From Tridacna crocea (lineage: Eukaryota > Mollusca > Bivalvia > Cardiida > Cardiidae), in NCBI GenBank assembly GCA_943736015.1, contig OX031057.1, positions 56,936,001 to 57,000,000 of the forward strand: 64,000 nucleotides of DNA. Direction: 5' to 3'. The position numbers were made by a program, and so were the translations under genes. Position 1 is the stretch's first letter. The number at the start of each line of letters is the position of its first letter. Positions 338 to 42,300 of the stretch are shown here, piece by piece. The notes beneath the pieces were generated by a model. It made no database searches. It was not told the DNA's origin and saw only the letters and a program-made list of their open reading frames with translations.

Positions 338-3300
338 GTAATACATTTGTATTGCGTTTCTTTCTCAGCTCAGATGATGGGACTTATCTGTGAAAGGATA
401 GAAAACATGGAGAAAGCGGAAAATGTTGATAACCGTTATTTTCCACTTTTTCATTTTAAAGCATCTGTACGAGTCTTTTTTTCTTTTAACTCCAAATAAT
501 GGAATGTATTGGTGACATGGAGTTAATACTGGTTTCTGACATAATTTTTTCCTTATCCCACATCATTTTTTATGTCAATAGAATCTGCTTATGTCTTTAG
601 CGTATGGTGAAATTTTAAACAATTCTTTTTTTTTCACATTTTTCAATCTACAACAAAGGTACTTAACTAAGGCATTTTCTCCATTTCTCATATCGTTTTA
701 AAAACCCTCTTCCAACGTTTGTGAACCCTTTGGACAGCTTAGCTCAGGATAAGACCATAACAACAATCTTCTTCCTTTTTCCTTCAGATTCTCAGTTTGG
801 ATACAGCAGGGTGTAAGTATGAGAAAATCGCTAACTGTAATCACGACATCGACTGTGTATGGTGTGGAGATCCACCGAGCAACTGTACCAGAAAAGATAC
901 TTGTTCAAAGCCACAGGATGTGGATGAATTGGTGAGTCCTTAACCGAGGGTTGTACTTACATGTATCTATCAGATATAAGGTGTCACGCCACTGGTGTTT
1001 GGTAATTTGACCATCTTTGAAGCTCCACAGACCGCTCAATGGTAAACCTTTTGCTTTTCCGTCTCCTGCTGTCTAAAGTACGTGCTTATTCCTTCCAAAA
1101 AATGCATTGAAAATAACATGTCAGCCAGTTGCTAGATCGCTAAATCCCAAAAGACACGGACACCTTAGAATTTTCCCTCTAAAAATCACCTCTTCATCCC
1201 CATGATCCATATTTCTTTTTTTTTTTTTTTTGTTCTTCCAGTGACAAAAATAAGTCCACTCAATATAGATCTATAATAAAAACACATCTAAGTGGTCCCC
1301 ATGTGTCAAAATTTAAAGCAGGTCTAAATTATATACCACTAAGACCTCTTAGCCCCATTAAACAGTGCAAAAAAGTTGCTTCTGCAAAATTTCACATGAG
1401 ACTACTGTTGACTAAATACGACCCGGAAGCAGGCTCGCAGTGGTGCGAAACCATAACATCCGAAAGTATTTGGACTATTGACTTCTACGAACCAGAGGCA
1501 ATCTCGAAGTAGTACGACAGTTATATAAAATAGAATTTGACTTTCAAGTCAGGTTTTTTTTAGCCTTAAGTAACATGAAAGACGTGTAGTATATTCCAAT
1601 TAAAATACCAGAACTGCATAAAGTATGTACACAATGTCATGGCTCCTTTCATTACAATGTTTTCATCTATGACAAATGAAGAGTAATTTCTACAGACCAG
1701 ACTTACCAGTTCAATATGGCTGCCTCCATAGGCACTTTACAAAAGCGAATAAAAATATAATGCTGCCGCTCATGCGGCGCCGCACTAACTGTGCATAACA
1801 CTCATGAATACATAACACTATTGTAGTTTTTTAATTGCGGCGTGATGATTTTCTTTGTACAGTTTTAATTCTCTTTATTTCAATCGTTAACAACCATTTT
1901 CTGCTAAGATGCTTTTCTGCTATTCTTATGAAAACTGATTTGAGAAGTTTTACAACTCATGTGGTAAAATCTGGTTAATAATGCTATCTTTCAAAACAAA
2001 TGTCAAACGATAACATTTCCCCATTAACATTGAAAAGGAAATCCGCGTACTTCCTGTATATGTATACATGAAAATGATGAAAAGATATCTGTTTAACTCT
2101 TTCCCAAAAGACAACATTTTAGACTGGTCCAAATTGAAAGCATTTGCAGACTATAAAACAAATGTGATTAAAGAATTGAAATTTGTTTTAGGAAGGGAAG
2201 AAAACATTGTGGGAAAAGGAGAAAATGCTGGTTACCAGCATTTTCTCCATTTCCCACAATGTTTTCAAAAGGCTTCTGTCACAGGGGTGTTAAAATTCGA
2301 GATTGTGTTGTAAAGGGTTAAAACAGTATCGGTTATTGTAAAGCACCATGTACATAAGTGTCAAGGAAAAATTGCAGCTTCTTTAGTGTTGTTCATGATT
2401 TTTGCCCTCTGTCACAATAGGTACGTTGACGATGGGGATTCGTCCTTGGTTTCCGATTACCAACAATAACGGCAAAATACTAAATAGTACATTTGTCAAA
2501 ATTGTCGTCTCGGCCTGTGCAATCCGCGCTGGCTTATCCGACACAGCACTTAATGACTACATTAGATTTGGTCCTACTGGTCCTGCAGTATACTTGCACC
2601 GGACAGAAAATTACATAAACACGGAAAGTGTCGTTTCGGATAGGTCTGCATGGAGTGCACAGGCTGATCCGAATGACACCTAACCTTTATCCCACCAAAT
2701 GGGCTCAATTTGACCCCAGCGACTATTTTCATGAAGCTATTAAAACTTACTCATGCAAGACTTGTGAGATCTGACGACTTTGTCCAAACCAGTGAGCCAA
2801 AGCAAGAGGTCATGCTAGAGGACTGGCTAGATATAGAGACCGTGGAATTAGACCAAATGACCAAGAACTAGGTGACACGGACCGCAGAGTGCAGCACACG
2901 CACCTTCACCAACAAGCATCAGATGCCAAAATAGATAGATTGATTGACTGATTGATTGATTGATTGATTGATGTTTTACACCACTTTCAGCATCATTTCT
3001 ATCATATCACGATGACAGCTCACACATTAATATCTATCTTATATTTCACTATATCTAGGCTATTGCTCTGTACAAAGCGATTTGGCCAAATGACACACCC
3101 TCAAAAAGCTTTCATTTTAAGAGAGCACTCAACCCCTTAGCCATAAAGGATCTTGTAGACAGATATGTTCCCTGCAGTGAAACTGTACGGATAAAGGTTG
3201 TCGACAGCCACTGAACATTATAAGCAACAATTGGAAACTGGAAATGCTTTGAACTCTGAAAACTCAAAGGATTCCTTCACATTCTATAGAATGTGTCATG

Positions 3301-12300: not shown

Positions 12301-15300
12301 AAAAAAAAAATGTTGCTAGGTTGGGGTATCAAACACCAGTCTTCTAGCTTGTGTCAGATTAGTACCATGCAGGCAGGTTTTTTGAAGTTTCATAAGCTTT
12401 ATCAGTACCCTTTACACTCCTATTAATTATGGAGAAATAAGATTGATAATTGCTTATTGGGGTTCATGCCACATTAGCAAATTTTCAGTTATACATGTAT
12501 ATCAACACTCATCCTAACCAGACTCTACTGAATAGGCAGTTAACCAGTACTAAGTCAGATACTGGCATCTGCCTACTTCAGAAAGAATCTTACCTGTCCT
12601 GTACCAAAAATAGTAATAACATGGGAGTTATATCACTTCTCCAAAGAGATAATTGTGTAATCTTATGAAATCATATATATATTGACTTCTATATTGGCAA
12701 GTAAACTGAAACTTAATTTGGTCTCAGCAGAACTGGAAAGATCATTACTTTTCTAGAGCCGTGAAAGTAAGTGCTCAGGCCAAATCAAAATTCTGTTCCT
12801 TGGCAGAAATGTTTGTCATCACAAGATACAGTGGCTTTGAATGATTTTAGTGGTTGAAAAAGAACTAGGATAGGCTATCTTTTCCTGACAGCACAGGAGG
12901 AGTCCTGCAGGGCTCAGTGGTAAAGTGTGGGACTCACAAGCTGGAGGCTCTGGGTTCAAGCTGCACTGCATTCATTGGAGTTTTCATTGCAGTGCCCTTG
13001 GGCAAGACACTTCAAAGCCCTTACCTAGTACTGCTAAAACCCAGAAAATACATGAATATACCAGCTGCTGCAGTGATATGACTGAAATAATGTTGAAGCG
13101 GCATAAAACAGTCGTTAAATATATCCCTTTTTTTTTTTTTTTTTTATAGCTTATACACCTATGGACATCAAGTGAAGAGAAAGCTCTAATAAGTGTGAGA
13201 GGAGAGGTTGATGAGGAGTTTAATAAAAATCAATGCCATGATGTCCTGGTTTACTGGTCTAACTTTTCCATAATTTTAACATTTTCGGACTTTTGAGTGC
13301 TTCTTTGCAGAGGATCATTTTTTCTGTTTCTTTGATAACTCTAAAAAGGCAGAGTGGCTGTATGTGTCAGAAGTCAGTGGCCATTTGTTACCAGTGTCAT
13401 ACACTACCATAGGTTTGGTTGAAGCCCTGTTTCAATAGATTATGTTGAAATCTTCAACATACTTGAATTTAGTTGGATTATTCCCTGTACTGTTGTTCTC
13501 AAGACTGCTTTCCGATAATCTTTTTTAAGTTTGTTCCATTTATTTTTCACCTGCACATTTGTCACATTTATGCCCTAACAATATGGGAAAAGTAGCCAGT
13601 TAACCCATTACCACACAATCCCTACTTTTGATGCCCCTGAGAAAGAAGCCTTTAGAAAACATTGTGGGAAAAGGAGAAAATGCTGGTTACCAGCATTTTC
13701 TCATTTTCCCACAATGTTTTCTACCCTTCACAAAACAAATTTCAAATTTTCAATCACTTTTATTCTGTCGTCTGCAAATGCTTTCAATTTGGACAAGTCT
13801 ATAAATTAAATATTATTGTTTGGTAATAAGTTAAAATTTAAAATTTCAATTTCGTATTTACATGATTTGGTCAGCATTTTTGGTTGGATTTTCGTGAAAC
13901 TTGCACAATTTGTTTATCTCATCAACAGCTTCAAGCTGATTGATTTTGAAAAAACAAACAAACAAACAAACAGTAAGGGAAAAGTAGCCACTTTAATAGC
14001 TATTTCTTGTTTACTTGATAAAGAATGCATTATCTGTCAGATTTCTGTGTACTTGCAAAGTTTGTTTTATCAATAGCTTTAACCCTATTGGTTTTGAAAA
14101 AAAAAAATGAAACAAACAATATCGGAAAAGTAGGCATTTCAAGTTGAAAATTTCCATTTCTTGTTTACATGATGAAAATTTCATTTGTTTTTATGTTGTT
14201 TTTTTTAACTTTGACAGTTTGCAAGAAAATAAGTAGATACACTGCAAGTAGAGCAGTTCAGGCTCTTAAGGGCCACTAGTTCTTTATACTCTACCACAGG
14301 AAGTGATGGGATATTTATATGTTATATTGTCTAATGCCTGTTGCCTCAATTTAAAACAGGACAAGGCTTTTACCCTAATTCTGCTTTAACTTGAAGCAGC
14401 ATACAAAGAAACTTTGGTGGCTGCATTTGATTTCACAAGTTTTTATGAACAACCTTAGACATTTTTATCTCCACTGGCCCAAGGCCAGCAGGCTTATGTC
14501 ATGGCCTGGTGCCCGTTGTACATGTGTGTCTGTGTGTTAACTTTTTTTTCAAACTTCTTCACTGAAACTACCCATTCATTTGATGAAACCTCACAGAAAC
14601 GATCTTGCTATTGTCTTCTCCAGAAATTCTTGAAAGAATTAAAAAGCTGGTTGCCATAGCAACAAAACCGAAAAATTTTGATTGTCTTTGAAAATCTTCT
14701 TGTCTGAAACCATAAGGCCCAGGGCTACCAAATTTGGCATCTAGCTTTATCTTATGGACCTCAATCACTTCAAATTTGTATGGTTAAAAAGCCAGTGGAG
14801 CAATGTACAGAGGCATAATGGGCCTCTTGTTAGATTTATCTGACACTTTGATTTTCATGTTAGTTTTCAAACTTTATTAAAATGATGTTAACTGTTATTG
14901 GCATATCTCATTTATTTTCCAAACTTCTGCTTTTATGACTTAAATATACCGGTACCCTTCAAATGATCAATTTTGTAAGACCTACTTTATAGTAAAAGTT
15001 TGGGTTTACAGTTATAAATGTCGTAGGCTAGACAGGAATTCAGCTAGATTCAGAATCTGGCTAGACCAGATAGGCAATCGATTTTATCAGGACTAGGACA
15101 GATAAAAATTCTTAATTGGTCTGGACTCATTCAGGATCTGGCTAAACAATTTTTAGCCAGATAGAAATTGTTATTCAACTCCTGATCTGCCTTACACCAA
15201 AAAAGGATTTTTATCAAGACTTCAACTAGGCCTACACTGTATGAGTCTTGGTCATAGCCCTGGGAATCTTTGTATTTAACTCTTTAGCAAATAGCAAAAT

Positions 15301-18300
15301 TTTGGACTTGTCCAAATTGAAAGCATTTGCAGACGACAAAATGAATGTGAATAAAAAATAGAAAATTGATTTGGAAAGGGTAGAAAACATTGTGGGAAAT
15401 GGAGAAAATGCTGGTTACTTCATTCTGGTTACCAGCATTTTCTCCTTTTCCAACGGTGTTTTCAAAGGTTGAAATTAAATGCATATGCAGAAATCAAATG
15501 TAGCTGGAATTATGGTAGAGCTAATTGTCTCCAAAAGTTTTGAAAACCTTTTGGGGTGAAAGAAAAATACCAAAAATTTTCATTGAAATATGCGATTTTT
15601 CGGAAGAAAAACAGATCTGTGTCCTCAATACCACCACTATGGTCCAGGCTTGTAAGAAAAAGGCCGATAATCCTTAGAACCTCCTCACACATCCCTTTAT
15701 CAATTCGAAAATGGTACCTTAACCCTTACCCAAACGACAAACTTTTGGACTAGACCAAATTGAAAGCATTTGCAGACTACAATTCAACTCTTGCTAAAAA
15801 GATTTCTGTCTATGATTGGGTAGAAAACATTGTGGGAAAAGGAGAAAATGCTGGTTACCAGCATTTTCTCCTTTTTCCACAATGTTTTCAAAAGGCTACT
15901 ATTCAAGACCCGTAAAAACCAGGGATTGTTTGAGAAAGGGTTAAGTCAAAGTCTATAAACTGCGGAATTATATTCTCTGAATAACCCTGCACCCGCGGAA
16001 TACTAGTATGCTGTCCACGGAGTCTGAGTAAGAGACCAATCAAAACAGTCACCTTTTTTTAATGAATTCAATTATGACTCTAATTTTTAAATTATCTTTC
16101 TATCTGATAGCAACGACAAAATGTACATGTCCCTAACGATCAATGCATGTAGGAAAGTGAAATAAACTATGCAAACATTTCTGTTTATTTGTGTAAAAAC
16201 AAAAAAACAAACTAACTTGAAATATATATATATATCATTAATTATCAAATTTTCAAGTAGATAAATCTGGGAAAAAAAGGTTAATTGCTCTTATAAAACT
16301 AATATTAGGCACCGAATTAGGTGCAGGATGGCGTCCGCTTTTTCCCTCTATATTTCATATCGTCCGCTTTTTTCCTCTTTGTCTATATGGTCCGCTTATC
16401 GCGTCCGCGTTTTAGTCACACCCGTTGCAAAGGCTATGTGTGTTCGCTTCATGACATGCGTACTTGACAGCTTCCCGTTTATTTATAGTTTTCTGACGTC
16501 ACTTTAGCTGTGGCTATAGCCCCAAACGAAGTCAGCCATAGATCGAGACAACCTTCGGTATTATTCGTGTATATTCGAACTATGCCATCGACAACCTCAC
16601 GTGATACCATTGCATCTCATAAATGCTACAAAGGACTACTGTTTACACTTTAAATAGTATGTCATCGGAGAGTATGATTGCTCATTCTGAACCTGTTTTC
16701 TTACTTAGATGAAGTAAACTCTTTTTGTATTGATGAAAATTGAATAAGCGATGATCAGCCTGTGTAGTCGTTTTGTTTAAAATGTCGATAAACTTACGTT
16801 TTTCAAGCCTAGAATGGGACAAAACGATCAAGCGAATGAAAGTTTTGTTTCAATGCTGTGAGTGATCACATTGCTTACATCACTATCACGTCAGTCGTCA
16901 GCGATCATTCATGTAAACATGTATTGCGGCATAGTAGGAATTGTTCTAGTTTTTTTTTCTGCCATTGCCTGGAACTTTTACCAACTTTACATATTGTGCA
17001 AGTCATAATACTTACCATATTTTTACATGATAAAAATAAGGTTGACTTTTCTTTTATAAACAGATTGTTTATTCAGTTGGACTTTACTGTGACTTTAAAA
17101 ATGGCTCTAATATAAAAAAAAAAGGAAAAAAAGAATTGGAAAGGAAGAAAGTGCTTGTAGCTAGTATAATTTCTATGTCCTAAATTGTTTTCAGAAATTT
17201 TCGTCCAAAGGGTTGAGGAAAACAAGTTATTTTGCTGAAAAGGGATAATGGTTCTTGTAGATCTAGTACGTTTTGCTGTATAATGTTGTTTGCAGCTCAA
17301 CATTGACAAATGCTACAAGTATACTTTCGCTGCAAACATGAAGAAAACTAGGCAGTTACTCGCAGTAAAATCGTGCAATTATCCCATAGCATAGTTCATG
17401 TGAATACAATTATGAAAATACATTTTTCTGTAACTTTCGATATTTTTTATCGTTCAGCAAATGCAGTATCTAATAACAGCATTTATGTGGAAATAAGTAA
17501 CTCTAACAGACGACAAAAGACGACAACAGATTACAAATAAAAATGATACGGTAATAACCATTGTTATAATCAAAGCGTTGAGAACGCTGAAGTGATATTT
17601 ATCAAGGAACCCATTGTGTTGTATTAATAACTTAAAAGAAAAAGAGACGTACGATATTACGTATTGTTCAAATTTTGGCTAAAAAGTCAACCTACTAAGC
17701 AAATGAGTACTCATGACAAAGTTTGTACTAGTGGTCTCCTTCAATCTTTAGGAGGAGTCAGGAGTAACTTCCCTTGACAGTAGGATGCATGATGGGTAGA
17801 GAGAAAAATCATGTGAACAAATCGAATAGAATAAAGTTTATACCCGAAAACTATGATTTTGAAATGTCTTTAGCCGTTAATATTTAATTCCCAACATTAC
17901 AATTAATTATTTTGATCTATAAATATTCACGCGCAATCAAATGGAGTAGCGATCATAGGATGAACAAGCCATGGGACGAACTGGTTTTTTGAATGAAAAT
18001 GCCAGACCAAGAGATCGGTAGATAAATGTTGTATCATTGCGCGAATAGTAAGCGTATGAGCGAGTAAACCTATTTATAATAATAATAAAAAAAAAAGATT
18101 TCCACGATCGATGGCCTCACCCAATTTTTTTAACATGCCATTTCGAATTACATATCTGAAAAGTACTGAAAAACTTATTTGCCTGAGAAAAGATGGGTTA
18201 AATTACGTTTAGTTCCTTCGGCTTTACACAAAATATTATACATGGTCTTCAGAATTCAACAATGAACTCGTATTGTCTTCGACAAATACTAAACAAAGGA

Positions 18301-21300
18301 GAAAATGATGGTTAGCGTTTCTTCTATTATCACAATGTTTTCAAAAGTCTCCTTCTGCTGGCTTGTTTAAGTAGGGATCAGGTGGTCAAGGGTCTTTAAC
18401 AGAGGACAGAGTTTCCGAGTCGTTCATGGCGAGTGCATATTGTATAGACCACAATATAGGTATATGGGATTCGTCTTTGAATTAGAAGATAACATGTAGG
18501 AGAGAACCAAATTAACGGTTACCAACATATTACAACTCGATTAAAGATTTTTACTTGATTTTGGGGGGAGTAAGGAAGTTGATATTTTTTACATAATCAC
18601 TCGTATTATGAAAATAAAATGTCTACGACCTTCAAAACCAGCCGTTCTGTTTCAGCAACCGATGTTCATTTATCGTGTTTAAAATATATCTTATCTCGCA
18701 ATAATGCCTATCCTTTTACAAATAGAATTAAAATTACACAAAAGTCATCTGAAAAAATATCGATTACCTTGTTAACTATTTGTGTTTTCTACGTGTATTC
18801 CTTGCAGATGTTTTAGCTTAGATGCAATTATTGCACTCGAAATAAAATTACTAGTTTTGTTACCTTGTTCGGAAAAAAGAGAAAGTCGAAACAAAAGCCA
18901 GTTAGATGTTCTTTTAATTTTAACATAATTCTGGGTTTGCCCTTAGAAAGAAATACTTTATAGAAAAGGAAAAACACATTGTGTTACCCAACACTTCACT
19001 CTTTCCCATAATGTTTTCAACCAATCGAAAGACAAAGTCAATTAATATAGATACATTTAGATTGTGGTCTACAACTGTTTTCAATGCAGACAAATCGAAA
19101 TTTTTGTCGTTTGGTAAAGAATTAAAGTTTATACTTCTTAAGTGTTATCTTACCCTCTCAGGTGAACATTGGCCGTAACTTGATATATCATCCTGGAAGT
19201 GTGACCTTTGTAAAAACTAAAACTACTACGACTATTTTCACACGACGGGTGACTTTTAAAAGAACTAAAGAGACTACAATTGCTTTCACTGCTATAAATA
19301 CCACCGTCGAATCCAAGATGATCGAACCAGAAACTTCTGAGACGAGGGACGGCAATGAAAACAGGTTCTCCTCACCTCGCCTAGAGGTCCTGATACCGAG
19401 TATTGGCGTGCCTTTGGTTATTATCGTTTGCTGTGTAGTGATGGTTTATCGCAGATGCCATAAACGTACAAAAAGAAGGTATTTAAACGTATTGTCGTTA
19501 CACATTATAGAACGACCCCTTGATTTGAAGGCATTGAAAACAACGTGGTAAATGAAAGCAATACTGTTCATCAGTATTTTCTTCGACAATATTTTTAAGA
19601 GCAGTTTTTTTTAACATGGGATAAAATGTATATCAAAGGTAGACTTTACTTTCTGAAAAGTCTAATCTTGGTCCACACCGTCCGAAGAGTATATTGAGTG
19701 GTGCCTTGCCGAAACTCCAGAGTCGGCAAAGAATAGAGCTTGAAATCAAGAGCTTGCTACTTTCTGTCCCAACGTTGATAATAGTGATTGCGATAGGATT
19801 CTTTTCTTTCAAAGCTAATCATTGTTTCGCTATAATGGTTGAGCTACTTTAAAACCATCGTGCGAAGGACTAGTTTAAAAAAAAAAAACTCTGGGGAAGC
19901 ATTGATATTGCCGCCTTAATTACGCAGAAATAATTTTCAAAATAATATAAATGCAGTACATAAAAACAAAAAAAAGTCTAAATCTTTTAAAACTCTATCT
20001 TGAGCTGTCGGAATGTTTATAAATATCTAGGATCAAACTGCACGTCATGTATACAATGAAATACACTGTGCCTAGGATGGAACTAGGGGTCTTGCTTTCA
20101 CCCTTTCCCAAACGACAAACTTTTGGACCAGACCAAATTGAAAGCATTTGCAGACGACAATTCAACTCCTGCTGAAAAGATTATTTCTGTCTATGATAGA
20201 GTAGAAAAGATTGTGGGAAAAGGAGAAAATGCTGGTTACCAGCATTTACTCCTTTTCCAACAATGTTTTCAAAAGGCTACTATTCCAGAACCGTAAAAAC
20301 CAGGGATTGTTTGGGAAAAGGTTAAGAACTTGTTTTCGATTTTATAAATGCTCAACCTGCTTTATCGGACTGTGTAATTATTGAGCGATCTTATCTTTTG
20401 CTTCATCAAAACCATTGTTTTCCTTTCCATATTTTATCTGTTTGCATGTTATATGTACATGAATTGATGTAGATCTAAGAAAAGGCTGCAAGTTCTAAAT
20501 AGAAGCTCAGATTGAAAAGTCTGATCTATCTACACTTCCCCGCCCCAAGAAAGGCAACGTTGAAATCGTGCATTTTACCCGTGACTCTAAATCGTCTTTT
20601 TTAAAACTCATTTTCATGTTCCAGGGACATGATTGACCTTGACCTTCCTTTAGTAATCAGATACCGCAATAACCACGTCACATTTATGGACGATCGACCC
20701 TCTTGCCAAGCCACATCGCAGGATAATTCTTCAACAGACGCGTTCATTGCAGGTGAAGCTCATTCTTTATTCTAAAGGATCTTCCAAGATTTTTATTCTC
20801 AAACCAAACTTGAAAAAAGAAACTGGCAAACAATCAGGTAAAACATGTATCGTGCTTGACACCAACTGCAGCTAATCAACGTTTTATCATAATGATTATT
20901 ATTATTTCATTACTATTTTCAGAAAATTGTGAAGATTCAACACAACTGTTAATAAAAAGCATGAAAGAAAAAGAACTGATCCTAAAAAAGTGTGACTTGA
21001 ACATCGACGCACTTATTGGCAGAGGTAAAGTAGATGCTTTTATAGCTTGATGCAAGCCTGCAAGCTTTATTTCCGAACAATGATCAGTAAGATCAGAAAG
21101 CAAAAATGTCAGTCCCAGGTTCAATTTTCTTTAAATTCTTTAGTTATTTTCTTTCAAGTCTCTACGATGTGAGCGGGTTTATGCATCTCCGTGTGTAAAT
21201 ATACCAGGCAAGGCACCATGTAACCAAGGATCTGTAAAATCCAGTGTGTCGAACAACTGAGTCATGGGGTAAAAGGTTCTTAGACATGAAGAAAATTCAC

Positions 21301-24300
21301 CAAAGCGAAAGTTTGCTATCAAGGTCAGCCTGTGTACTGCAGAGAAATGACCTTCCCCTACAAAATGACCCATGGGTCATTTTTCTACGTAGAGAAATGA
21401 CCCCAGAAGTCATTTCAATACGTAGAGGAATGACCCAGGTCATTATTCTACGAAGAGAAATGACCCTCTTAGGTAATTTCTCTACGTAGAATAATGACCC
21501 GGGTCTCTCCTCTGCAAAGAGAAAGACCCAGAGGTCATTCCTCTACGTAGAGGAATGACCCGTGGGTCATTTTGTAGGGGAGGGTCATTTCTCAGCATTA
21601 CACCTGCACGAATTGCCCAAGGCCGACCTTGGACTTTTTTCTAATATTATGGAAAAATAGAAATTTGGTGATCAGGAAACACTCTGCCATCAATGTCGAA
21701 ATATCAATAATATCAATTATAGTGACAAATTTAATTTTACATGAGCAAATTATTTCAAATCAAATGAATCTAAAATTTAGCGGATTCTTTGAGCGTTTTG
21801 AGTTGAATGCATTTCACTAAATGTGCTTTGACGAATCTGTTGAGCTATTTATTTGTAACGACTTGAGACCCGTTTATCTTTTTTCTCAACGGATCTACAC
21901 GACAAATGTAAGAAACATCAACCATGCAAAACCTTGCTTAAATGTTATGAATTGTATTAAATATGACTGTAATACCTGTATTTTTTAACCCTTTCCCAAA
22001 CAGTCCCTGCTTTTTACGAGTCTGGAATAGTAGCCTTTTGAAAACATTGTAGGATAAAAGGAGAAAGTGCTGGTAACCAGCAAAGACAGAAATCATCTTT
22101 TCAGCAAGAGTTGAATTGTGGTCTGCAAAATGCTTTCAATTTCGTCTAGTCCAAAAGTTTGTCGTTTGGAAAAGGGTTAAGAGAGATAATATTCATTGTA
22201 ACAGTTTTTGTTAACTTATAAGCAGATCACAAAGTTTTTTTACTTGTCAAAATTGAAAGCACTTGCACAAGACTGATTCAAATTGTAATAGTCATAGCAT
22301 TTGCACGCTTTATAAATGAAGAATAAAAACTGTGGGGAAAAAAAATACTAATCATAAGCATTTTTTCTACAATGATTTTCAAAGATTTATATTTTTTCGT
22401 AGGTTGTTAAAAGTATAGGTGATGTGGTAAAGGATTAAAGGGAATTCAGCTCTGTAGTTAGTAATTGCCTACTTTTTTACTGCAGTTAACCGCTTATTTG
22501 AGTGTAGTGATATCGGTTCCTGATTTGCATGTAGCATGGTAAAAAAAAACAGATTTCATTTCTTTTAGGAAACTTTGGTGCAGTGTACAAAGGCAAGCTG
22601 TTTTCTGACGAAAGACAAATAGAAATCGCAGTCAAAACACTAAAAAGTGTGTATTACGTTACGTATGTCTATCTGTCTGTCTGTGTGTCTGTCTGTCTCT
22701 GTTTTACACTTTATCTAGGTAGTGTGATAAAAAAGAATATCGGACAGTCTACATCCAAGAATATAATGCAGTTTATATTGTTTTACCATGACTAACACTA
22801 TGCATTAGGGCTTATCAAATAGTTAGTCCTGAATGAATTATTTACTTCAACCTATTTTTATTTATTATATATTCTTTTCAACCAACTTTGAAAAAAGTAC
22901 TATGAGTTGCATCCATCATTATGTGCCACACAACACTATCTGCTATGTATATCAGGATAATACAATTTTAAGTAAACACTTCTGCTATTAGCAATTATGT
23001 TCCAATCTTTTTAAGCACAAAGATTTGAGACGTATCAGAAAAGAATAGTTCCGAAAAACATTCTTAAACTATATCTTCCCTCATGATTTATCATATCAAC
23101 ACTAGTAGTGTTATTCACTGAAAAATGGAAAATATTATACTGAAAAGTCCGAATTGATTTACAGGTATACAATAAATCATACTTTGAAAAAAAAAAGTTC
23201 TACGATTTGCTATTTCTTATATCAATCATTTTGGATGAGTGCCTCCTGAAAACAAAAATGAGAAATGAAAAAATCATTCTTTGTTGTCGGCAAGCTCAAA
23301 AATATAAGCCAGCTAACTACCAGATTCAAGCCCTGAGTGTCTTTGTTGAGAGGTTGTCATTATATCCTAATTACAAATAATGTTTCCTTTGGGGAAACAA
23401 TACCATATTTAAGAACTTTAAAGAGAATGCCGTTCTAAGTTACAATGTCGAAAAATATTTCAGTAATCTCGGTAGAACTTATTCTAGTGGTGTTCTTGTT
23501 TCTCGCTTCGTATATGTCAAGATTACACATAATCCTTCTTATTTCAACACTGTTTACTATTATCACGATGCTAATGTACACAAGTCGTGTAAAATTACAT
23601 GTATGTCATGTAATCCAGCTTTAAATAAACGCTAGATATGCGTACACATACAATATGCCTGCTCGACAGGTGTCTGTTAAATTACTTATGCAGGAATCGA
23701 GCTATTTCGACCAATTATTCTTGAAAATCGATTTGATAGTCTATAAATTAGGCTAAACAAGACGTTTATGTTTAGGGGGAAAAAGAGAGGGATAACCTCA
23801 ATAACACAAAGAATTATTCAAGCCAGAGGAGCACTTGACAAATGCCTTTGACACTAGTTTTATCGCGTAACAAATCCAGATGCTTGCAAAGGAACATCTT
23901 CGCAAGCCAAGGCTGACGATTCACTATGCTACTCTACCCTTGGCGGATCGATCATGATTTTTTCATTCCCCGATTCGCCTTTTTCATTGGATGCAGCCAG
24001 GTCTAACTGCAACGAATGGAATTGCTCGTAGCATATCATCTTTGACAAAAATAGAAAAAGCTTGCTACCTTCGAATAGAAGGTTAACATGGAAACCCACG
24101 TGGATGTCTGCTTCTCGCTTCATGTGTATTCATAAGCGGTTTGTAAAACGACATTTCATTTGCTTTTAAAGATATGATGTAAAGGGGGTAAAAACCAGCA
24201 TCCGATTGAGGGCGCATCTCAGGAATCTCGAAATCGGGCTCAATCAGGCAAGGTAAGATCCACGTAGTGATCGTAACCTTGGCTCGCGAAGATGGCAAAG

Positions 24301-30300: not shown

Positions 30301-33300
30301 AACCTACCTGTTTCTGCATATAATGTGGAGTGTTCTGTTTTAAGTGTAAAACTTTTCTAAGGAATGCACGATGTAATTTTTCAAAGAATTTATGATCTTC
30401 ATATCCCAATACATCTGAGGAGAATGTTAAAATAGTATGGTCAAATAACTTAAACACAATATCAACAGGTAAATTCAAATTGTTAACTTTTCTGTAAAAA
30501 TAGTATAGTGCCTTTGTTGCTTGTTGTACAAGATATTTTCTATTTGTTAAGAAACTTCAAGTAGAAGAAAAATAAATACCCAGATATTTTGTTTTCAAGT
30601 TAAAAGGAATATCTTTTTTTCTTCCTACTGCCAAATATTATGATCAGAGTTTTATTAATATTCACCTGTAATTTCCAAGTTTTACAATATTCTGAGAAGC
30701 TATTCGGACATAACTGTAACTTTTTTGGGTCATCTGCAAATATAACAGTGTCATCCACATACAGCAGAATTAATATTTTAGCATTATATCAAATCCATTG
30801 TAGCGTAGGGCTATACCATCATTATTGTAGTTGTTGAGATGGCACTCGAGGTCATTCAAAAACAACGAGAAAGGGACTGGTGACAGATTTTTGCCTTGCC
30901 TGACTCTGCAATTACATAGAAAAAAATTCAGAAAGATTACTGTTTACTGATACGCATGATTTGATATTTTGGTACATATTTCTAATAAGATGAAAAAAAT
31001 ACCATTTATGCCATATGTACATGTAAGTAATTTGGACCACAATCCGACCCGCCATACAGAATCAAATGCTTTAGAGAAGTCTATGTAGCAGCAGAAGAGC
31101 CTTTTATTGTAAAACTTGAACAGTTCAATAATAGAGTTCAGGGTAAATTGGTGATCAGTTATAGAATAGTTTGCTCTGACGCCAGCTTGATTTTCTGATA
31201 AGAGATTGTGAGATAATATACAGTCAGACATAAGTGGAGCATCTCTAAAACTGACCAGCAACAGCCCATGTGCTTAGATCAGCATTACACAATTTGCCAT
31301 TTCTGGGCTTCTGAAAGTTTTCTCGTTGCCATCCTTTCATTTGGCTCATAAAGCAGCCTGTTACTTGTCTAGTTGGTCCGAAAATAGCTTGAAAATATAC
31401 CAAATAAAAGTTTATCCTTTTAAAAAAAATATGACTAAATTTGTTCGGGTGATGGTTAACTTGTGTCTGACTATATAAAGTGTTGTAACCGGTCATTCAA
31501 GACAGAGGTAAAACGCTTACTAACACATCTTAAGAGTGTAATAGGGCGATAATTTTCAGGGTCATTTCTTTCACCCTTATTCTTGTATATTGGTATAATA
31601 ACACCTGATGACCATTCAGTTGGAAATATCCCTAATTTTAGGATTTTGTTAAAGAGGTTTATATAAACTGGTAATAATTTTTCCTGTGAATATTAAATGT
31701 ACTCATTTTTAGTATTAGCTAAGCCTGGTGATTTATTGGAATTAATTTTTTTAATGCTCTTTTGAATTTTCTGTGGTGTGAAGGGAACATTCAATATTGG
31801 GTCATCATCTAATGTCATGTCTTCAAAGTTTATGGTAAGATCCTCATTGTCATGTGACTCATCATCACTGACATTTTAAAAATGTTTATATAATGATTCC
31901 AAACAGATAAGTAGAACTAACATCTCACGATTATCAATCAAGAGAGTCAAGAAAAAGGGTCTTTGACATGAAACTAAAGTGTCGGTGAAATTTCTTCAAA
32001 ATTGTTATGGATCAGTCGTGTTGTAAAACTGTCTTGAAACCGTTTTTTTTGGTATGTTTGTTTTGTTTGTTTTATTCCGCCCGTTAATCCACTGAAAATG
32101 CTTCACGCGAAACAAAGTTTATGCCATGCATTTAAGTCTATCATGTATAGAATAATATTTATGTTTAACACATTACCACACAATCCCTACTTTTGACGAC
32201 CCTGAGAAAGAAGCCTTTAGAGAACATTGTGGGAAAAGGAGAAAATGCTGGTCCCACAATGTAGTATACCTTTAATAAAAAAAAATCAAATTTTCAGTCA
32301 CTTTTATTTTGTTTGTCGTCTGCAAATGCTTTCGATTTGGACGAGCCTATAATATTGTTTTGTGATAATGAGTTAAAGCAATGTTTGCTCCGAAATGGAT
32401 ATATTTCAAAAGCACACGATACTCAACCCGTTGTTCAAAACGTCCAGCACAACATCGTCATTTTCGTCATCAGTCGGCGGAAGGTAAGTTTCATCCTCAT
32501 CTTCAGGAACTTAAGAAGTTTTATTAAAAATTTGCTTGTACATGGCCCACAATCGTCTGTTTTTTCGTCTTCAATATCGTTAAGTTAAACAACGTCCAAC
32601 GTTAAACAAGCTATCCTATGACGTCACAAATCAAGGCATCAACAATAAGTAAAGGAGATAAGTGATACAATGAAATTAATAAGCAGAAATATAAATTGAA
32701 AAAAAGTACTTTTACTATTAGTAACTAATTTACTTTTAGCTCACCTTAGCACAAAGTGCTAAAGGTGAGCTATTGTGATCGCCCTATGTCCGTCGTCCGT
32801 CAACAATGTCTTTAAACATTTTCTCCTAAACCACTGAGCCAATCTTGATGAAACTTTGCAGGAATTTTCCTTTGGCACAGCTTTACCAAAACTGTTCAAA
32901 GAATTGAATTCCGACCATAACTCTGGTTGCCATGGCAACAAAAAGGAAAAAAATCTTTGAAAATCTTCTTCTCTGAAACTAGAAGAGGTAGAGTCTTGAT
33001 ATTTGGTATGTGGCATTCTGAAAATATTGAATTAAATCCTTTTGCCACACTTCATCCTACTTTCTTTGAAAATATATTTTGGTACATAAGCAGGTGTAAG
33101 TTTAAGTATCGCATATATTATAATACAGCTGTAAAAATTATTTCAACGCTTGGGCGCAATATTGAACATACGCTGTGTGTCAAATGTGGGCAATTTTATG
33201 ATGTTATAGCTGTACATGGTCTCTTGTATTGCTATTCTACAAAGGAAATGAGAGAAAAACTTTTCTACATGTTATTATCAAAATATGGTTCACGTGTAAG

Positions 33301-36300
33301 TGATAGCTTTAGAAATTCATGTGATTTAACTAAAACTAGCATTCTTCTTGGTGCACCTATACCAGATTTTTTATAACAATTTTTATTTGTAGAACACATA
33401 GATTTTGTAGTGTCTCTGTTATATTATTTCATGCCACATGGGTAGTATTTAATACATACATGTAGCTGATACTGCTTTTAGGTATAATAATACTTGATGC
33501 ACTTATGTTTGCAATGACGGAAATAGCATCATTTATAAGTGGTGATTATAATATTACCTTAATTATTTCCATTTTATTATTTTCATGTTCAGTGCTATCC
33601 TTATCGTTACTTTTTTCCATTATTTGTCTGTGTAATCTCTCGCTCTCTCTCTCCTTTTTCTTTCTGTTTTTTTTTTTTTTTTTTTTTTATGTGTGTATGC
33701 GTGTTGTAGTTTAGTCTTTGTATACTTGTAAATCTTCACTTGCTCGAGGAAATAAAGATATGAATGAAAAAGTTTGTTCCAATTATGCCCATAGGGTCAA
33801 AAATGCCCCCCCCCCGTGGGTCACAAGTTTGAGCATAGGAACAAAGAAGGAAAACTTTAAAAATCTTATCCTCTGAAACTAGCTGGCGTAGCGCCTTGAT
33901 AGTTGGTCTGTTGCATCTCCTAGTAGACTCCTACCAAGTTTGTTCATATGATGTCCTTGGGGTCAAAACTGGCCCAGCCCCGGGGGTCATAAGTTGGAAG
34001 AGAGCAACAAAGAAGGAAATTTTAAAAAAATTCTTCTCTGAAACTTGATGGTGTTGAACTTTGATATTTGTTATATAGCATGTTCTAGTGGACCTCTACC
34101 AAGTTTGTTCATATGAAGCCCTTGGGGTCAATACTGGTCCTGTCCCGGGGAGGTCACAAGTTCGAACATAGGAACAAAGAAAGAAAATTTTCAAATTCTT
34201 CTTCTCTAAAACTAGAAGGCATACAGGTATGATATTTGGCATGTAGCAATTCCTAGTGGACCTCTACCAAGTTTGTTAATATTATATACTTTGGTTCAAA
34301 AATGGCACTGTCCCGAGGGTCACAGGTTTCAACATAGCAACAAAAAAGGAAAATTTTAGAAATCTTCTTCTCTGAAACTCGAAGATGCAGAACTTTAATT
34401 TTGGTATGCAGAATCTTCTAGTGGACCTCTCCTAAGTTTGGTCATATGATGTCCCTGGCGTCAAAACTGGCCCTGCCCAGGAGGTCACAGGTTGGAACAT
34501 AGGAACAAAGAAGGAAAAATTTAAATTTCTTTTTCTCTTAAACGGGAAGGTGTAGAGCTTTGATATTTGGTATGTAGGATCTTTGAGTGGACCTCTTCCA
34601 AGGATGCTGCTTTGGTCAAAACTGGTCCTGTCCCGGGGACCACAAGTTTGAACATAGGACAAAGAGGGAAAATTTAAAATTCTTCTTTGAAAATGGAAGG
34701 TGTAGAGCTTTGATATTTTATTGCCCTATGTCCTGCGTCTGTCGTCCAGCGTCCGTCGTCTGTCAACAATTTCTTTAAGGCAGGGATGTTCCTTGGGTGA
34801 AGCTTTACCAAAATTGTTCAAAGAATTGAATTTCAATCATAAGCTATAATCTAAGGTGAGCGTTCAAGGGCCAATGACCCTCTTTTTCTAATTACAGCAT
34901 GTCCAGGTTTCCATTTGATAAATGTAGATTTGAAAATTAACATTATCTAAAACTTGTTGATTTGCCCTTTAAGGAATAAAGTCAAGAAAGGCGATGAACA
35001 CTTTGAAGGCGGTGGTAATACAGCTTAGGCCTTTTTGAAAGCCTTGTTGTTGCGAACACCGAAAGTGGACTCTACTGTTTAGTGGGCATGACTATACTGT
35101 ATTTGTTATGAGCTCTTTATATACTTTGCAAAATGTTGAAATAAACGATATTGGCATGTAGCTGACTTGGTCGTGTTTTGGCTTAATTGGAATAATATAG
35201 CTGCTTCACCAAGCGTCTGGTAAACATTAATGGTCTAGTAAACTACTGAATAATACGACAAGCGCTTCTACGATAATCTGTCACCCGTAAATTATATGTT
35301 TATTTGTGATACTATCATGTGACGGGCCTCTTTTAAGGTCTTTCGTCACTAGCGAGATTTCTGCGGCATCGAACTTACGTTCGAGTTTAAACAATTTTTG
35401 TTTGATTTGGTGAATATAGCATATTTCGACGGATTTACTGACTTCCGCTTCAAAATGGCTACTATTACTTTTATTTGTTTCGTTAAATATATCGTAAATA
35501 TAGTTCTAAAAACCTTTTGAGGAGTTTTTGTCCCGCCATATCTTAAATTTTCAACTGTGACAGGAGTACCCTTTTTCCGGTGTTTTATTAGACTCCAAAA
35601 TAGCCTGGAAATGGTTTGGACATTCCGATCGAGGACCTCAAACAGTTTGTATAGAATATGTTTTTGATGCAAAACGCAGCAATTTTCTAAATTCGCTTTT
35701 TGCCGCTTTGTAATTACGATATGACTTACGGGATCTACCTCTATTAATCCAAATTTGCGTTTTTCTCGCGATGTCTTGTGGGTAATTTCAATCCATCAGA
35801 CCAGTATGGTTTCGTATGTTCATGTATATTAAACCTATTCTTCGGAAGTTTTTAGCTCTACTAGCTTTCAGCAAGCAGGGCTTATGTCATGGCGTGGTTT
35901 CCGTCGTCCGTCCGTCCGTCCGTCTGTCCGTCCGTTAGTCTTTTTCTTGTTTACGCGATAAAGTCTGCATTTGTTGCCCGATTTTCATGAAACTTGCACA
36001 GTTTGTTTATCTCATCAATAGCTTCAATTCTATTGATTTTGAGAAAAGTCCAAAAAACAGTATGGGAAAAGTAGCCATTTCAAGTTGAAAATTTCAAATT
36101 CTTGTTTATGCGATAAAGTCTGCATTTGTGGTCAGATTTTCGTGAAAATTGCACAGTTTGTTTATCTCATCAATAGCTTCAACCCTATTGATTTTGAGAA
36201 AAATCCAAGAGACAGTATGGGAAAAGTAGCCATTTCAAGTTGAAAATTTCTAATACTTGTTTACGCGATAAAGTCTGCATTTGTGGCCCGATTTTTTGTG

Positions 36301-39300
36301 AAACTTGCACAGTTTGTTTATCTCATCAAAAGCCTCAACCCTATTGATTTTGAGAAAAATCCAACCAACAATATGGGAAAAGTAGCTATTTCAAATTGAA
36401 AATTTCTAATTTTCGTTTACACTATAAAGTCTGCATTTGTTGTCAGATTTTCGTGAACCTTGCACAGTTTGTTTATGTCATCAATAGCTTCAACCTTTTT
36501 GATTTTGAGAAAAATCCAAGAAACAGTATGGGAAAAGTAGCCATTTCAAGTTGAAAATTTCTAATTCTTGTTTACCCGAGAAATTCTGCATTTGTTGTCC
36601 GATTTTTGTGAAACTTGCACAGTTTGTTTATCTCATCAATAGCTTCAACCCTATTGATTTTGAAAAAAAATCCAACTAATAGTATGGGAAAAGTAGCCAT
36701 TTCAAGTTGAAAATGTCTAATTTTCGTTTACACGATAAAGTCTGTCTTTCTTGTCAGATTTTCATGAAAATCACACAGTTTTTTTTTTATCTTATCAGTA
36801 GAGCTCCAACCCGATTTATTTTGAGAAAAATCCAATCAACAGTATGGGAAAAGTAGCCATTTCAAGTTGAAAATTTCAAATTCTTGTTTACGGGATAAAA
36901 TGTGCATTGTTATTAGATTTTTGTGAAACTTGCACCGTTTGTTTATCTCACCAACAGCTTCATCTCAATCGATTTTGAAATAAATCCAACAAACAGTATG
37001 AGAAAAGTAGCCATTTCAAGTTGAAAATTACCAATTCTTTTTTACGCATTAAAGTCTGCATTTCTTGTCAGATTTTCATGAGTTCCACACAGTTTGTTTA
37101 GTTGCAAGAACACATTTGTGTGTTTTTGGTCTTTTTGCATCATGAATTCATAATGTATGTTAGCATAAAAGCAAAATTCAATTCTCTGCCAGTAGAGCAT
37201 ATTCAGGCCCTTCAGGGCCTTCTAGTTAATTGTTTCTACAATGAAATTGGACAACCGATTGGGAGTGACGTCTTGTTATATTAAATATTGGTTCGAGTTT
37301 TTCTAGCATTACTGCATAAGCTTGTACAATAGACTGAGTACATTTATTCCAAACAATATTTTCCGGGATGGGTTCAGTATCGAACGACTTGAGTGGCTCG
37401 AATAATTCTTTGTTAACTTAGAGAGGTTGTTGGTAATGTAAGGTTAGAAACTGTACATTATACAAGAAAAGGTTTCTACTATCGCCTGTAAAGTTTCATG
37501 TTAGAAATTCAGTAGGATAAGAGTTAAAGGCTTGACTAAATCAGCGGACGGCATCATTCATACGTAATACACGTTCTATGGAGCCTGATCTTGATCCATT
37601 CTGTCCTAGAGAATAGGGCTGTTTTCGCTTTTGACGCTGAAAAGGTATATAAACTCAAAAACCCTCAATTGCTGCCATTTCACTTGAAAAAATCTCAGTC
37701 TTACACTGCACAGATCACTGATCAAACTGCGCAAGACGTGCAGTCTATTCTCAATATCCCTAACAGTGCAAGAAATCAACCCTAGCAGTATTCAGAGTCA
37801 AAATAGAGTTAAAAAATAAACTTCTTTATTATCATTTTTTTCAAAACTCTAATTTTCAGATACCAACAGTGAGAGATCTCGTGAGGTTTGGACTTGATAT
37901 TGCCCTAGGTATGGAGTATCTTGCGTCTTTAAAATTCGTTCATCGCGATTTGGCGGCCAGAAACTGTATGTAAGTATCGGAATTGCTTAAATTTGACATT
38001 TATTTATTCATTCTTTTTTGGCGGTGAATCATTGTTTTTATTTTTCCTAAATCATTGACAAATACTACAGCATATACATTTTCCTACAAATTAACCCTTT
38101 ACTACATAGATACTCATTTCTACGCATTGCTTGTAGGAGCCTTTGGAAAACATTGTGGCAAAAAGTGAAATTGCTCGTCACAAGAAATTTCACCTTTTGT
38201 CACAATGTTTTATGTGCTATGAAAAGGTGTCATATACACATAAGAAACGGCTTCATCCTTGCTGTTATATAGGGTCAATTAGAGATACCATAGAAATGCC
38301 TTATGAGGTAAAGAGTTAAAGGAAACCGGACGGTTACATGAAAAGTGCAAATTAGGCGTTCAGCTAATGGGTAGGTCGCTTTGCAATTTTTCACTAAGTC
38401 ATAATTTATGCCTGCGTATTTCATAAAAAAAAATCATATTAAAGTCTGATTCAGCTTAACATCAGTTTCGAACATTATATTTCTTTTTTCAACTCTGCTA
38501 ATTTCTTACAATTTAGCTACATATTCATCATATCACTGTTCTGTATAGGAGTTTGATTATAACTTGAACTTGATTGAACGCACACCACTTCAGCAGTGCT
38601 TTTAGTGTTTTGATTTGTTACTCAATCTTACTTATCTGAGCTTTATTTCGTTTTGCTTTTCGTAATATTTTAAAGAAGAGAATATAAAGTCTAGACAGGG
38701 CAGAATTCGAAGTTCTCTGGTCCGTATCAGCAACTATTATAAGAATGGTATTTGTCCCATTTTCTAGAATGTTTCTGATTGGCTTATCCTAATCGGAGCT
38801 TACGTTACTCTTTAAATCCAGGATGAAACTTAGATTGAAATTCAGACTGGTTGGTTAATATGGTTAGTATGACTCGCACAAAAGTAGTCTTTAGCAAATG
38901 CACACATATGGATGAGCTTAAAAATTGTGTTGGTTTTTGTTAACTTTAATATATGGCATGCAGCATGCGAAAAGGGGCATTCGGACATTTGCGTAAAGTG
39001 TCGTCTCGGATTAGCCTACGCAGTCTGCGCAGGCTAATCCGAGACGACACTTTACGACTACATTAGATTTTGTGCTACAGTAGACCTGCGCTAAACAGAA
39101 AATTGCATAAAAACGGGAAGTGTGGGCTCGGATTAGCCTGCACGAAATGCACAAGCTGATCCGAAACGACACTTTACGCAGATGTCCGAATGTTCCTTTT
39201 AGCGTATTGCATGCCATTTATCTAAAAGACCTGACTAGAGATTATGGCTTGCACTGCCGAAGGCCTACTATAATTTTATGTACAAAATCCGCGGTTCCCG

Positions 39301-42300
39301 AATTTCTTCCAGGCTTGATGCAAATCACAGGGTGAAAGTCGCCGATTTTGGCTTGACACGTGACATCTACGAGTCCAGTTACTACAGCATAAGAAGTAAA
39401 AATGTCAAACTTCCGATTAAATGGATGGCTATAGAAAGCTTATCAGGAGGAGAATTTAGTGAGAAAACGGACGTGGTGAGTCATGTCCTGTAGCTATATT
39501 GTCTCCTAACAATTAGGCTGGTCACGTTTTGCAGACCTTTTCCGAACAATGTAGATCCAAGATCAGACTGCAGAAAATCTGCAGTCTGATCTTGATCTAC
39601 ACTGTCCGATACGCAGATATGCCCCCCCCCCCGAAAAAATGAATAAAAAGAAAAGTCTTTGGAATACCAAAATTTGTTGTTTTTTTTTATCATCGGCATG
39701 AAAAAATCATGTTACCTATTTCGCAGGATAAGGGTTACAGCACGGACAAAGGCGACAGCCTGTCGCAAGAAAAATGTTACACAATTTTGATCCAGGGTAA
39801 AGGATGTGTCAACTTTCTACCACACGGCAAAATTTCGGACTGGTCAACATTGAGAGTAGATTGATTGAATTTGCGTTTATCTATCGTCGCCACAGGTTTT
39901 CCATTTGGGCGAAGGACCCTTAAGGTTGTTAGTATTATTACGGGGGTTACGCAGATACAGGACGAAACGTATCCTAAGTTTCGCCTGCTTCTTGAACGTG
40001 CTCGGCGTATAGCACCATCACACGGGACCTCGGTTTAACGTCTCATCCGAAAGACTATTAGTAATTTTAGATGGCCAGTCGTGGGGATCGAACCCACACG
40101 ATCATGATCACGAGTCATACCTCTACCAACTGAGCTACATGTACGTGAGCTGGTCGAAAAATTAAGAGTACAATCATTTAGTTGCAGACAATCAGACCGA
40201 ACAATAAAATGGACAGGTTAATATCAGACTAAACAGCCACTGCAGACTGCTCTTAGATCTACACTACCCACAACCAGTTTCACGGTAGGCCTACGGCCAA
40301 AATGTATCTTTGACTGCAGCGAATCAGTGGGAAAAACACTCTATTTGTCATTTTTTACGGCACTCGTTATTTTCGCATACCTTTCCCTTCTTCGGCAAAT
40401 ATTTCCCTATATTAACCACAAGCTGATGAAATAAATTTTAGATCTACATATTACTTACTTTATTTTTTAACCTGATCTTGGTCAACATAACATACAGAAA
40501 TAAAAGTTCTATTTCTTCCTTCTGCCTTCGATGTATGGACTGCGAAATATTTCGTATGATACATGTATAAGCGAATTATCTCTTTCCCAAACAAGCTCTG
40601 GTTTTTACGTGTCTGCAGTAGAAGTCTTTTGAAAACACTGTGGGAAAAGGAGAAATTGGTGGTAACGAGCAATTTCTCCTTTTCCCACATTGTTTTCTAC
40701 CCTTTTTGAGATTTTTCTGCCATTTTATCCAAATAAAAATTTCACGGTTGTCTGCAAACTCTTTCGGCTTGGAAGGGTCCAAAATTTATCGTTTGGGAAA
40801 GGGTTAAATAGCTCACCCGTACACTGCCTTGTATATATAATTTCCCTGGGTCATAGTCGAAGTTCTATTGATATGCCTCCTTATATTTGAACATAAAGGT
40901 CAGGATCAGGTTGAATGAAGCAGGCAATACCATTCCTAACATCGGCTTCTTTAGGTGTTTGTTTTCTAAATCTACAGTTTGCAATGTACAGTTTAAAAAG
41001 AACTAGAAGAACAGTTTTTGGAATGTTAGAAGTATAAATATATGTAAAATCCAGTTGTTTAACAGTAAGATTTGGGTAAATGGTACCGTTGTAAGAGATT
41101 GGAGATAATTTGGTACAGTTTTGGACAGGGCCAAAATGAGTGTTCAATATTGCTAATAGTTCAATCTGCGAATCGATATACCATGTTTATTAAAATAAAT
41201 TAATTTCGTCATAGAATAGGGTAAATTATTCGATATTGGAACTATTGTATGCAATGATCGTTTTTTCCTTTTTAAAGGGAAAGGAAAATAGTCTACTTGT
41301 CCTCACTCATCAAAATAGAGATTTCAGTTTGATTTTTGTACTCATGTGTGAATAAATGTCAGGTTTTTGTTAAGACAAACATGTATCTAGGATCATTAAC
41401 TGGCGGTGTTTGATATTAAAAATCCGTCACTAGAATGGGTGTGATGTGGTTGAAAAACGAGTCCGAAGGACAAGTTTTTTAATCGTGTCAAATCCCATTC
41501 GAGCAAAAGAGTAAAGAACCATACCAGATGAAGAAACAAATGAACCGTGTCAGACGGAAACCCGCCCATTCAAAACCTCTTTGTAATTAGTCATCGGTCT
41601 TCAGTATATGTAGTACACTAAAAAGGAATTGGACTTCCAATTTCGACAGTAGGATGTAACTTATTGGAATCTGAAATCTAAATTAGCCTGCATTAAGATT
41701 AGGACAACCTGTTTCAAGAGCAGACTGTCGGATTTGTCGATTCTCAAGCTGCTTCTGGTCCTTGTAAAATCCCTACAACTTTGAAAACTGTGACATTTAA
41801 AGTATTACTGACTGACTTTAGAAACACATCACTTACTAAAAAACATTTATATGTAGTATTATGAGATACGATTTTAACACTAAATAGGAACTTTTTTTTT
41901 TTAATATTTTGTTGGTCTTCACATAAAAATCGACATTGACTTATTTGGAGCCAGTCAAAGATGATCACTGACCTGATTAAGCATTTTCGTCTTACGGCAA
42001 TTACTGTCCGTGGACGTCGTCGCATCGACCTTACCAAGCGCTGAATGGTTGGCATTTGAATGTTCTGCTATTCCTCCATTAGTGCAACGCCAAGCTTGCT
42101 TGTATTCCGTGGCTGCTGTTACCGACGTCAAGGCTGATGTCCGAGCTCATCCTTCTAGTGCTCTATACATTTTATATCGGAAGACACTGCAGGACTCTCG
42201 AGAACCTCGATTATGTGGTAGGTCAAGAAATTTCGGGTGTTACGGGCAATATGGGCGCGGGCATTGTCCTGTTGGAATGTCAGTCGACGGTTGTTGCCGT

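Follow-up and report, generated by a model that had tools for sequence, protein, structure and literature searches.

A TTAA-flanked hairpin MITE, probably of piggyBac type, in the genome of Tridacna crocea

Family A of Tridacna crocea is most probably a non-autonomous cut-and-paste MITE of about 220 bp, inserted at TTAA by a piggyBac-type transposase with duplication of the four target bases. Hairpin-bearing relatives of this family appear to make up about a fifth of the genome. The kind of element is known (a TTAA MITE); what is unusual is the scale of its expansion and the palindrome that it has kept.

The observations behind this explanation are that most intact-ended copies have TTAA on both sides, that comparison with paralogous units gives an empty site in register, that the short TIRs mostly start with CCC, that the copies fall into clusters of different age, and that abundance is very high. 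In the proposed mechanism, a piggyBac transposase, present or past, would move family A in trans. The internal palindrome would stay perfect in source copies, or be restored there again and again; it may be needed for the transposase to bind or at some other step of mobilisation.

The window is the whole 64-kb stretch of DNA analysed here (C2:56936001-57000000), part of a genome of 1.049 Gb in 31 contigs. It contains one copy, termed focal below, that interrupts a recognisable host repeat (family F).

Abundance and TTAA flanks

The TTAA targeting proposed in the initial annotation survived the refuting condition set there, a lack of TTAA at most genomic copies. The exact end CCCTTTCCCAAAC occurs 68,224 times on both strands (reversed pattern, 112), and TTAA directly precedes 58,282 of these occurrences (85.4%; reversed control, 0). 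The string CCCATTACCACACA is found 100,714 times (control, 3), and the hairpin 22-mer GAAAACATTGTGGGAAAAGGAG, present twice in each intact hairpin, 268,892 times in 1.05 Gb (control, 0).

Coverage was estimated from a sample of 20 stretches of 10 kb, taken at round-number positions on 18 contigs (C1-C18). At E ≤1e-6 the sample holds 221 family A copies, which occupy 39,502 of 200,000 bases (19.8%; bootstrap 16.0-23.9%) at a density of 1.1 copies per kb (0.9-1.3). The stricter cut-off of E 1e-20 leaves 153 copies over 30,928 bases. The reversed sample sequence, used as control, gave no family A match. Coverage of individual 10-kb stretches ranges from 4.6% to 45%, with the window at the poor end. 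Exact-string densities agree between sample and genome (0.080 versus 0.065, 0.115 versus 0.096, and 0.245 versus 0.256 per kb), and the sample therefore is fair to within about 20%. Scaled from these 200 kb, family A has roughly a million copies (0.9-1.4 million), fragments and diverged copies counted. "Family" is used broadly here: nearest-neighbour divergence reaches 33% in the sample, and an 80% identity rule would divide the copies into several families. The features are those of a MITE: a length of 227 bp, no ORF of at least 120 aa, TIRs alike at 13 of 16 positions, and the 221 copies in 200 kb.

The sample also gives good support to insertion at TTAA. Both ends are present in 101 copies, with TTAA on both sides in 58, on one side in 31, and on neither side in 12; the last group is taken as decay. 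Nineteen neighbouring pairs lie at most 12 bases apart, ten of them with exactly one TTAA between the two copies. Self-targeting of family A ends was considered for these close pairs and seems unnecessary, as the sample has 1,570 TTAA and 198 of them are themselves next to the end of a copy. By the rule used, no copies are nested within family A.

In the window, 21 non-overlapping matches (E ≤1e-6) account for 6.0% of the sequence. Eleven are flagged with both ends; as read from the table of copies, seven of these (59102-59319 counted among them) have TTAA on both sides and four on one side, with TTAA at 0.72% of window positions as background. The earlier count of at least ten window copies with one or both TTAA flanks is thereby confirmed, through the 11 two-ended copies together with 22223-22433 and the relative at 38095. 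The CCC/GGG-type ends described at the same time are correct for most window copies; CTC, CAC, CCT, ATC, and GTC are the exceptions. Copies other than the focal one are as follows.

2097..2317, minus strand: family A copy; TTAA on both sides
15723..15940, minus strand: family A copy; TTAA on both sides
20101..20320, minus strand: family A copy; TTAA left, TGAA right
21989..22176, plus strand: family A copy; TTAA on both sides, right hairpin arm deleted
22223..22433, minus strand: diverged family A copy; both ends, as extrapolated, are next to TTAA, the model stopping just short of the right one
32170..32371, plus strand: family A copy; TTAA on both sides, hairpin partly deleted
38095..38317, plus strand: relative that shares end type and hairpin and has a diverged body; TTAA left, right end and right TTAA placed by eye
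40580..40803, plus strand: family A copy; TTAT left, TTAA right
44370..44590, minus strand: family A copy; TTAA on both sides
45764..45933, plus strand: diverged family A copy; TTAA left, TTAT right
58104..58321, plus strand: family A copy; TTAA left only
59102..59319, plus strand: family A copy; TTAA left, and on the right a TTAA that lies 2 bases within the end as extrapolated

At 57740-57808, a 34-bp unit that includes some of the family A hairpin sequence is perfectly repeated in tandem, twice in all.

The internal palindrome

From left to right, family A consists of a TIR of about 16 bp, a variable stretch, and the palindrome (33-bp arms); beyond these lie model positions 119-160, which vary greatly, the conserved block 161-190, and the TIR of the right end. 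Across 242 copies, the arms diverge from the consensus by 0.11, the two TIRs by 0.14 and 0.165, and block 161-190 by 0.14. The most divergent stretches of the model are 17-51 (0.24) and 119-160 (0.30, the least conserved). The hairpin was also considered as a module common to unrelated families, and this was rejected: 215 of the 223 hairpin matches in sample and window lie inside family A, and the other eight score only 21-25 bits.

Clustering was performed with the 141 of 242 copies that cover at least 180 model columns; divisions into three, five, and seven groups were tried, and the five-group consensuses were inspected. Median divergence is 3.7% for the CCCTTTCCCAAAC type with ordinary arms (8 copies), 7.7% for the CCCATT type (58 copies), 9.2% for the CCCTTTCCCAAAC type with changed arms (7 copies), 10.9% for the CCCTTTACCAAAC type (17 copies), and 20% for the CCCTTTACCACAC type (51 copies). 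All five consensuses start with CCC, extended to CCCT in four and CCCA in one; the focal copy also starts CCCA. Every consensus has zero arm mismatches. One of them departs from the rest at three arm pairs, and at each of these both sides have changed.

Single copies often break the palindrome. Only 13 of the 132 copies with at least 30 readable pairs are without an arm mismatch, and among the 170 hairpin-spanning copies, 30 of 43 deletions of at least 8 columns are centred in the hairpin (27 copies). The breakpoints of these hairpin deletions are private, except for one pair with 66-84 in common. Hairpins thus break often, yet no cluster founded by broken hairpins is visible in the sample, which suggests that source copies need, or keep restoring, an intact palindrome.

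Changes in the two arms were compared across 186 hairpins in which 25 or more of the 33 pairs could be read (5,949 cells). Matched double changes number 122, unmatched double changes 69, and one-sided changes 879. Shuffles, which ignore relatedness, gave a mean of 39.7 matched cells and a maximum of 60 in 500 trials. When partners were slid along the arm, the share of paired positions discriminated (0.84 for true partners versus 0.36-0.42), and the count of matched changes did not (122 versus 75-94). At the five varying pairs, the derived haplotypes alike in both arms are CGAAG (10 copies), TCTTC (6), CGATC (3), and TGATC (2). Haplotypes changed in one arm only, among the top 25, include TAAAG (in 6 and 6 copies) and CGAAG (in 4, with TGAAG in the other arm).

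The chances are about even that the palindrome is not needed for mobility, and either is kept solely because source elements copy one arm onto the other (by template switching or gene conversion) or just marks a few recent sources. The matched changes are whole haplotypes shared by several copies, so that independent events may be few; together with the failure of the slid-partner control to discriminate the count, and with the existence of one-arm variants, this would fit such an origin. Against it, palindromes without mismatch persist in consensuses that range from 3.7% to 20% in median divergence, and most of the longer deletions strike the hairpin, the broken copies showing almost only private breakpoints.

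A role for the palindrome as a transposase binding site is plausible by analogy, because piggyBac transposase dimers bind palindromic sites via cysteine-rich C-terminal domains (PMC11707139, available text). At 67 bases, the palindrome of family A is much longer than those sites. A bolder proposal appears rather unlikely: that family A is among the largest one-kind MITE expansions in animals, as a result of a source palindrome selected for matched arms and used by a transposase dimer or by the replication machinery. The old question of why some MITEs explode can be put in a testable form: is the intact palindrome needed?

The transposase

Mobilisation of piggyBac type is the likely and best reading of the sequence, because family A combines TTAA with CCC termini and because piggyBac transposons with TTAA and CCC occur in the same genome. 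Hallmarks of piggyBac elements are TTAA, a CC[C/T]T terminal motif, and TIRs of 12-19 bp (PMC2872659, available text). The terminal motif is present in the four CCCT consensuses. The focal copy and its cluster, which start CCCA, depart from it and so count against piggyBac, although CCCAT is also the start of piggyBac elements at L034 and L049/L050 and of one coral piggyBac.

The genome contains 118 matches to the piggyBac domain PF13843; some are pieces of a single gene, and none lies within the window. More than 20 span nearly the whole domain in open frames. Flanks were read at 22 of the 118: about 1.3-1.7 kb per side at 13 loci, 0.5 and 2.1 kb at L042, 1.5-kb flanks at three, and at five only a pair of 0.9-kb pieces lying about 300 bases away. 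These loci are partly non-independent, as L030 and L042 are duplicates and L047 and L048 look like one unit. Nine of the 22 have a candidate TIR pair with TTAA (one pair doubtful, one with TTAT on one side); L037 and L041 have one end only, and eleven have no TIR end. The pairs are listed here by locus.

L029, L045/L046: piggyBac TIR CCCTTTATATAC[GT], with TTAA
L031, L038: piggyBac TIR CCCTAGTCATGC, with TTAA
L034, L049/L050: piggyBac TIR CCCATTTATGCC, with TTAA; start CCCAT
L036, L039: piggyBac TIR CCCTTTCAGYGC, with TTAA; L039 has TTAT on one side
L040: doubtful TIR pair with two rival candidates, one of CCCTCTAGA type (3 mismatches in 13) and one rich in AT (2 mismatches)

TIR starts at these loci include CCCTTT, CCCTAG, and CCCATT, next to TTAA; beyond the first five or six bases, the piggyBac TIRs differ from those of family A, which speaks against piggyBac. 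The family A TIR itself (CCC[T/A]TTACCACAC or CCCTTTCCCAAAC) was found as a piggyBac end at 0 of the 22 loci read. Family A ends near these loci are ordinary MITE copies where the model matched, with a few two-mismatch TIR matches besides. The initial annotation had called for an autonomous piggyBac with matching ends; its view of the mobilisation remains likely, and the partner itself was absent from the 22 loci read, of 118.

A group of piggyBac genes with a 492-aa frame was considered as a recent partner and discarded: its copies L030 and L042 (on C5 and C9) lie within a longer duplicated stretch, with 99.9% identity throughout their 3,108 bases of overlap, which take in MITE copies as well. 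The same frame length recurs in at least three other matches. At L040, a family-A-like hairpin without family TIRs (L040:976-1055) lies beside the piggyBac frame, inside either candidate TIR pair; it could be either an old insertion or a shared module.

It is improbable that another TTAA-duplicating superfamily, such as Kolobok or Sola3, moves family A instead of piggyBac. Kolobok duplicates TTAA (PMC9587614), and in a survey of molluscs its reports are nearly confined to bivalves (PMC10294476), both according to the available parts of these sources; such a mobiliser would also accord with the lack of a matching piggyBac partner among the 22 loci read. However, Kolobok termini are 5'-RR and YY-3' (PMC9587614), whereas all five family A consensuses start with CCC, and the ends of family A are not of the Kolobok form.

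The insertion into family F

The focal copy is a 227-bp element very probably inserted at a TTAA site within a core unit of family F. The features involved are these.

13576..13599, plus strand: interrupted family F core unit, left piece (profile match, model 69-94 over 13576-13601)
13600..13603, no strand: left TTAA target-site copy (sequence reading and profile join)
13604..13830, plus strand: family A MITE, focal copy, 227 bp (sequence, profile join, and copy comparison)
13604..13619, plus strand: left TIR (CCCATTACCACACAAT), identified by eye and conserved across copies
13653..13687, plus strand: internal palindrome, left arm (inverted repeat I11 with 97% complementarity; z -8.4 when folded as DNA)
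13689..13723, plus strand: right arm of the internal palindrome (inverted repeat I11)
13815..13830, minus strand: right TIR, 13 of 16 bases as in the left TIR, counted by eye
13831..13834, no strand: right TTAA target-site copy (sequence reading and profile join)
13835..13897, plus strand: interrupted family F core unit, right piece (profile match, model 93-159 over 13831-13897)
35944..37081, plus strand: family F tandem array with intact units for comparison (tandem repeat and profile source)

A profile was made from seven intact core units (about 155 bp) of the array at 35944-37081. Alone, the left flank of the focal element matches model 69-94 (26 bases, 15.1 bits) and the right flank model 93-159 (16.3 bits). 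With the element and one TTAA taken out, model 69-159 is matched in one piece at 48.2 bits, which bears out the earlier claim that the MITE splits a core unit and that its removal rejoins the unit in register. Shifting each end by up to 8 bases gave 289 pairs of cut points; the top score of 48.2 came from six cuts only, all of which produce the identical joined sequence.

The element had been placed at 13614-13830; the right end is correct, and the start, at 13604, was set 10 bases late. The direct repeat at the junctions reads AGTTAA, and comparison of copies assigns the right-hand AG to the element end. The focal element has no ORF of at least 120 aa and, folded alone, gives z -8.4 as DNA and -8.0 as RNA.

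The description of this site as an empty-site proof holds for the insertion, and the word "proof" is slightly strong because intact family F units read TTCA, not TTAA, at the site. The target presumably was a one-base variant of the intact unit. The empty site is judged from paralogous family F units, the exact empty allele not having been seen. A chance resemblance or rearrangement, to which the TTCA of intact units and the short left piece might lend themselves, is scarcely credible, given that the pieces meet in register (model 94 and 93), that the joined match lies about 17 bits above the sum of its parts, and that the top score comes only from cuts with that same joined sequence.

Family F, at 35900-37230 and 13576-14279, consists of a TCCG microsatellite and core units of about 155 bp; near 14260-14279 and 37200-37230, a short GC-rich palindrome is followed by CTAG (by eye). 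From its layout it looks like a HINE/pearl-type non-autonomous Helentron.

Other repeats occupy the window also. Strong inverted repeats at 38949-39221, 43571-43712, 44980-45449, and 2505-2672 have CTGCGCAGGCT-type sequence in common and apparently represent another hairpin family. Arrays of a tandem unit of about 166 bp, at 25247-26298 and 33770-34718, look like one repeat in opposite orientations. An Rfam scan of the window gave nothing at gathering score. Pfam analysis of 7 of the 17 window ORFs (at least 120 aa) found retroelement domains in three and none in four; the three are listed below.

47791-48735, plus strand: reverse transcriptase frame
56707-57351, minus strand: reverse transcriptase frame
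61389-63872, minus strand: 827-aa frame with Pao peptidase and integrase domains

Comparison with known systems

DNA elements, including MITEs, are known to be abundant in bivalves (PMC10294476, available text), and a genome rich in MITEs is thus no novelty by itself in such an animal. A search of the literature for family A TIR and hairpin strings returned a single match, in an unrelated paper, and no source naming family A was found within its coverage, which excludes RepBase and most subscription papers.

If the extrapolation holds, family A has in this one genome about three times as many copies as the largest MITE superfamily reaches across 98 insect genomes combined (334,508; PMC5199201), and exceeds the highest count of all MITEs in a plant genome (368,869; PMC12550479, which gives 6.04% of the genome for rice). 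Both figures are from the available text of these sources, and the comparison is rough: counting rules differ, and the family A count takes in fragments and diverged copies.

The family F repeat that hosts the focal copy, rather than family A, resembles the oyster HINE, a Helentron-derived element (PMC7492417, available text). By eye, they share tandem core units next to a GTCC-type microsatellite and a right-end palindrome.

The piggyBac transposons of the same genome (CCCTTTATATAC, CCC[T]AGTCATGC, CCCATTTATGCC, and CCCTTTCAGYGC) share with family A the TTAA and the first five or six TIR bases. They differ in the rest of the TIR, and in being about 2.6-2.9 kb long with a transposase domain.

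The nearest described kind is the CMITEs of the coral Acropora (PMC2872659, likened by description rather than alignment, and from the available text). Both duplicate TTAA, with piggyBac as the supposed partner. CMITE TIRs start CCCTTTCCC in two of six families, counted here as like family A, and the TIR start and TTAA of family A also match coral piggyBac elements, with TIRs CCCTTTCCCGTCC and CCCATTCCCTGCCACA. An allele pair with and without the element is a further likeness. In CMITEs the internal region is better conserved than the TIRs; the same is true of the arms of family A, but not of its stretch 119-160. A piggyBac whose TIR matches that of CMITE family I has been isolated, whereas the 22 loci read here yielded none for family A. 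The available text on CMITEs does not contain "hairpin" or "palindrom", whereas family A has a hairpin. Finally, CMITEs are about 100 bp long, with an estimated 1,600 copies, compared with about 220 bp and, by extrapolation, about a million copies for family A.
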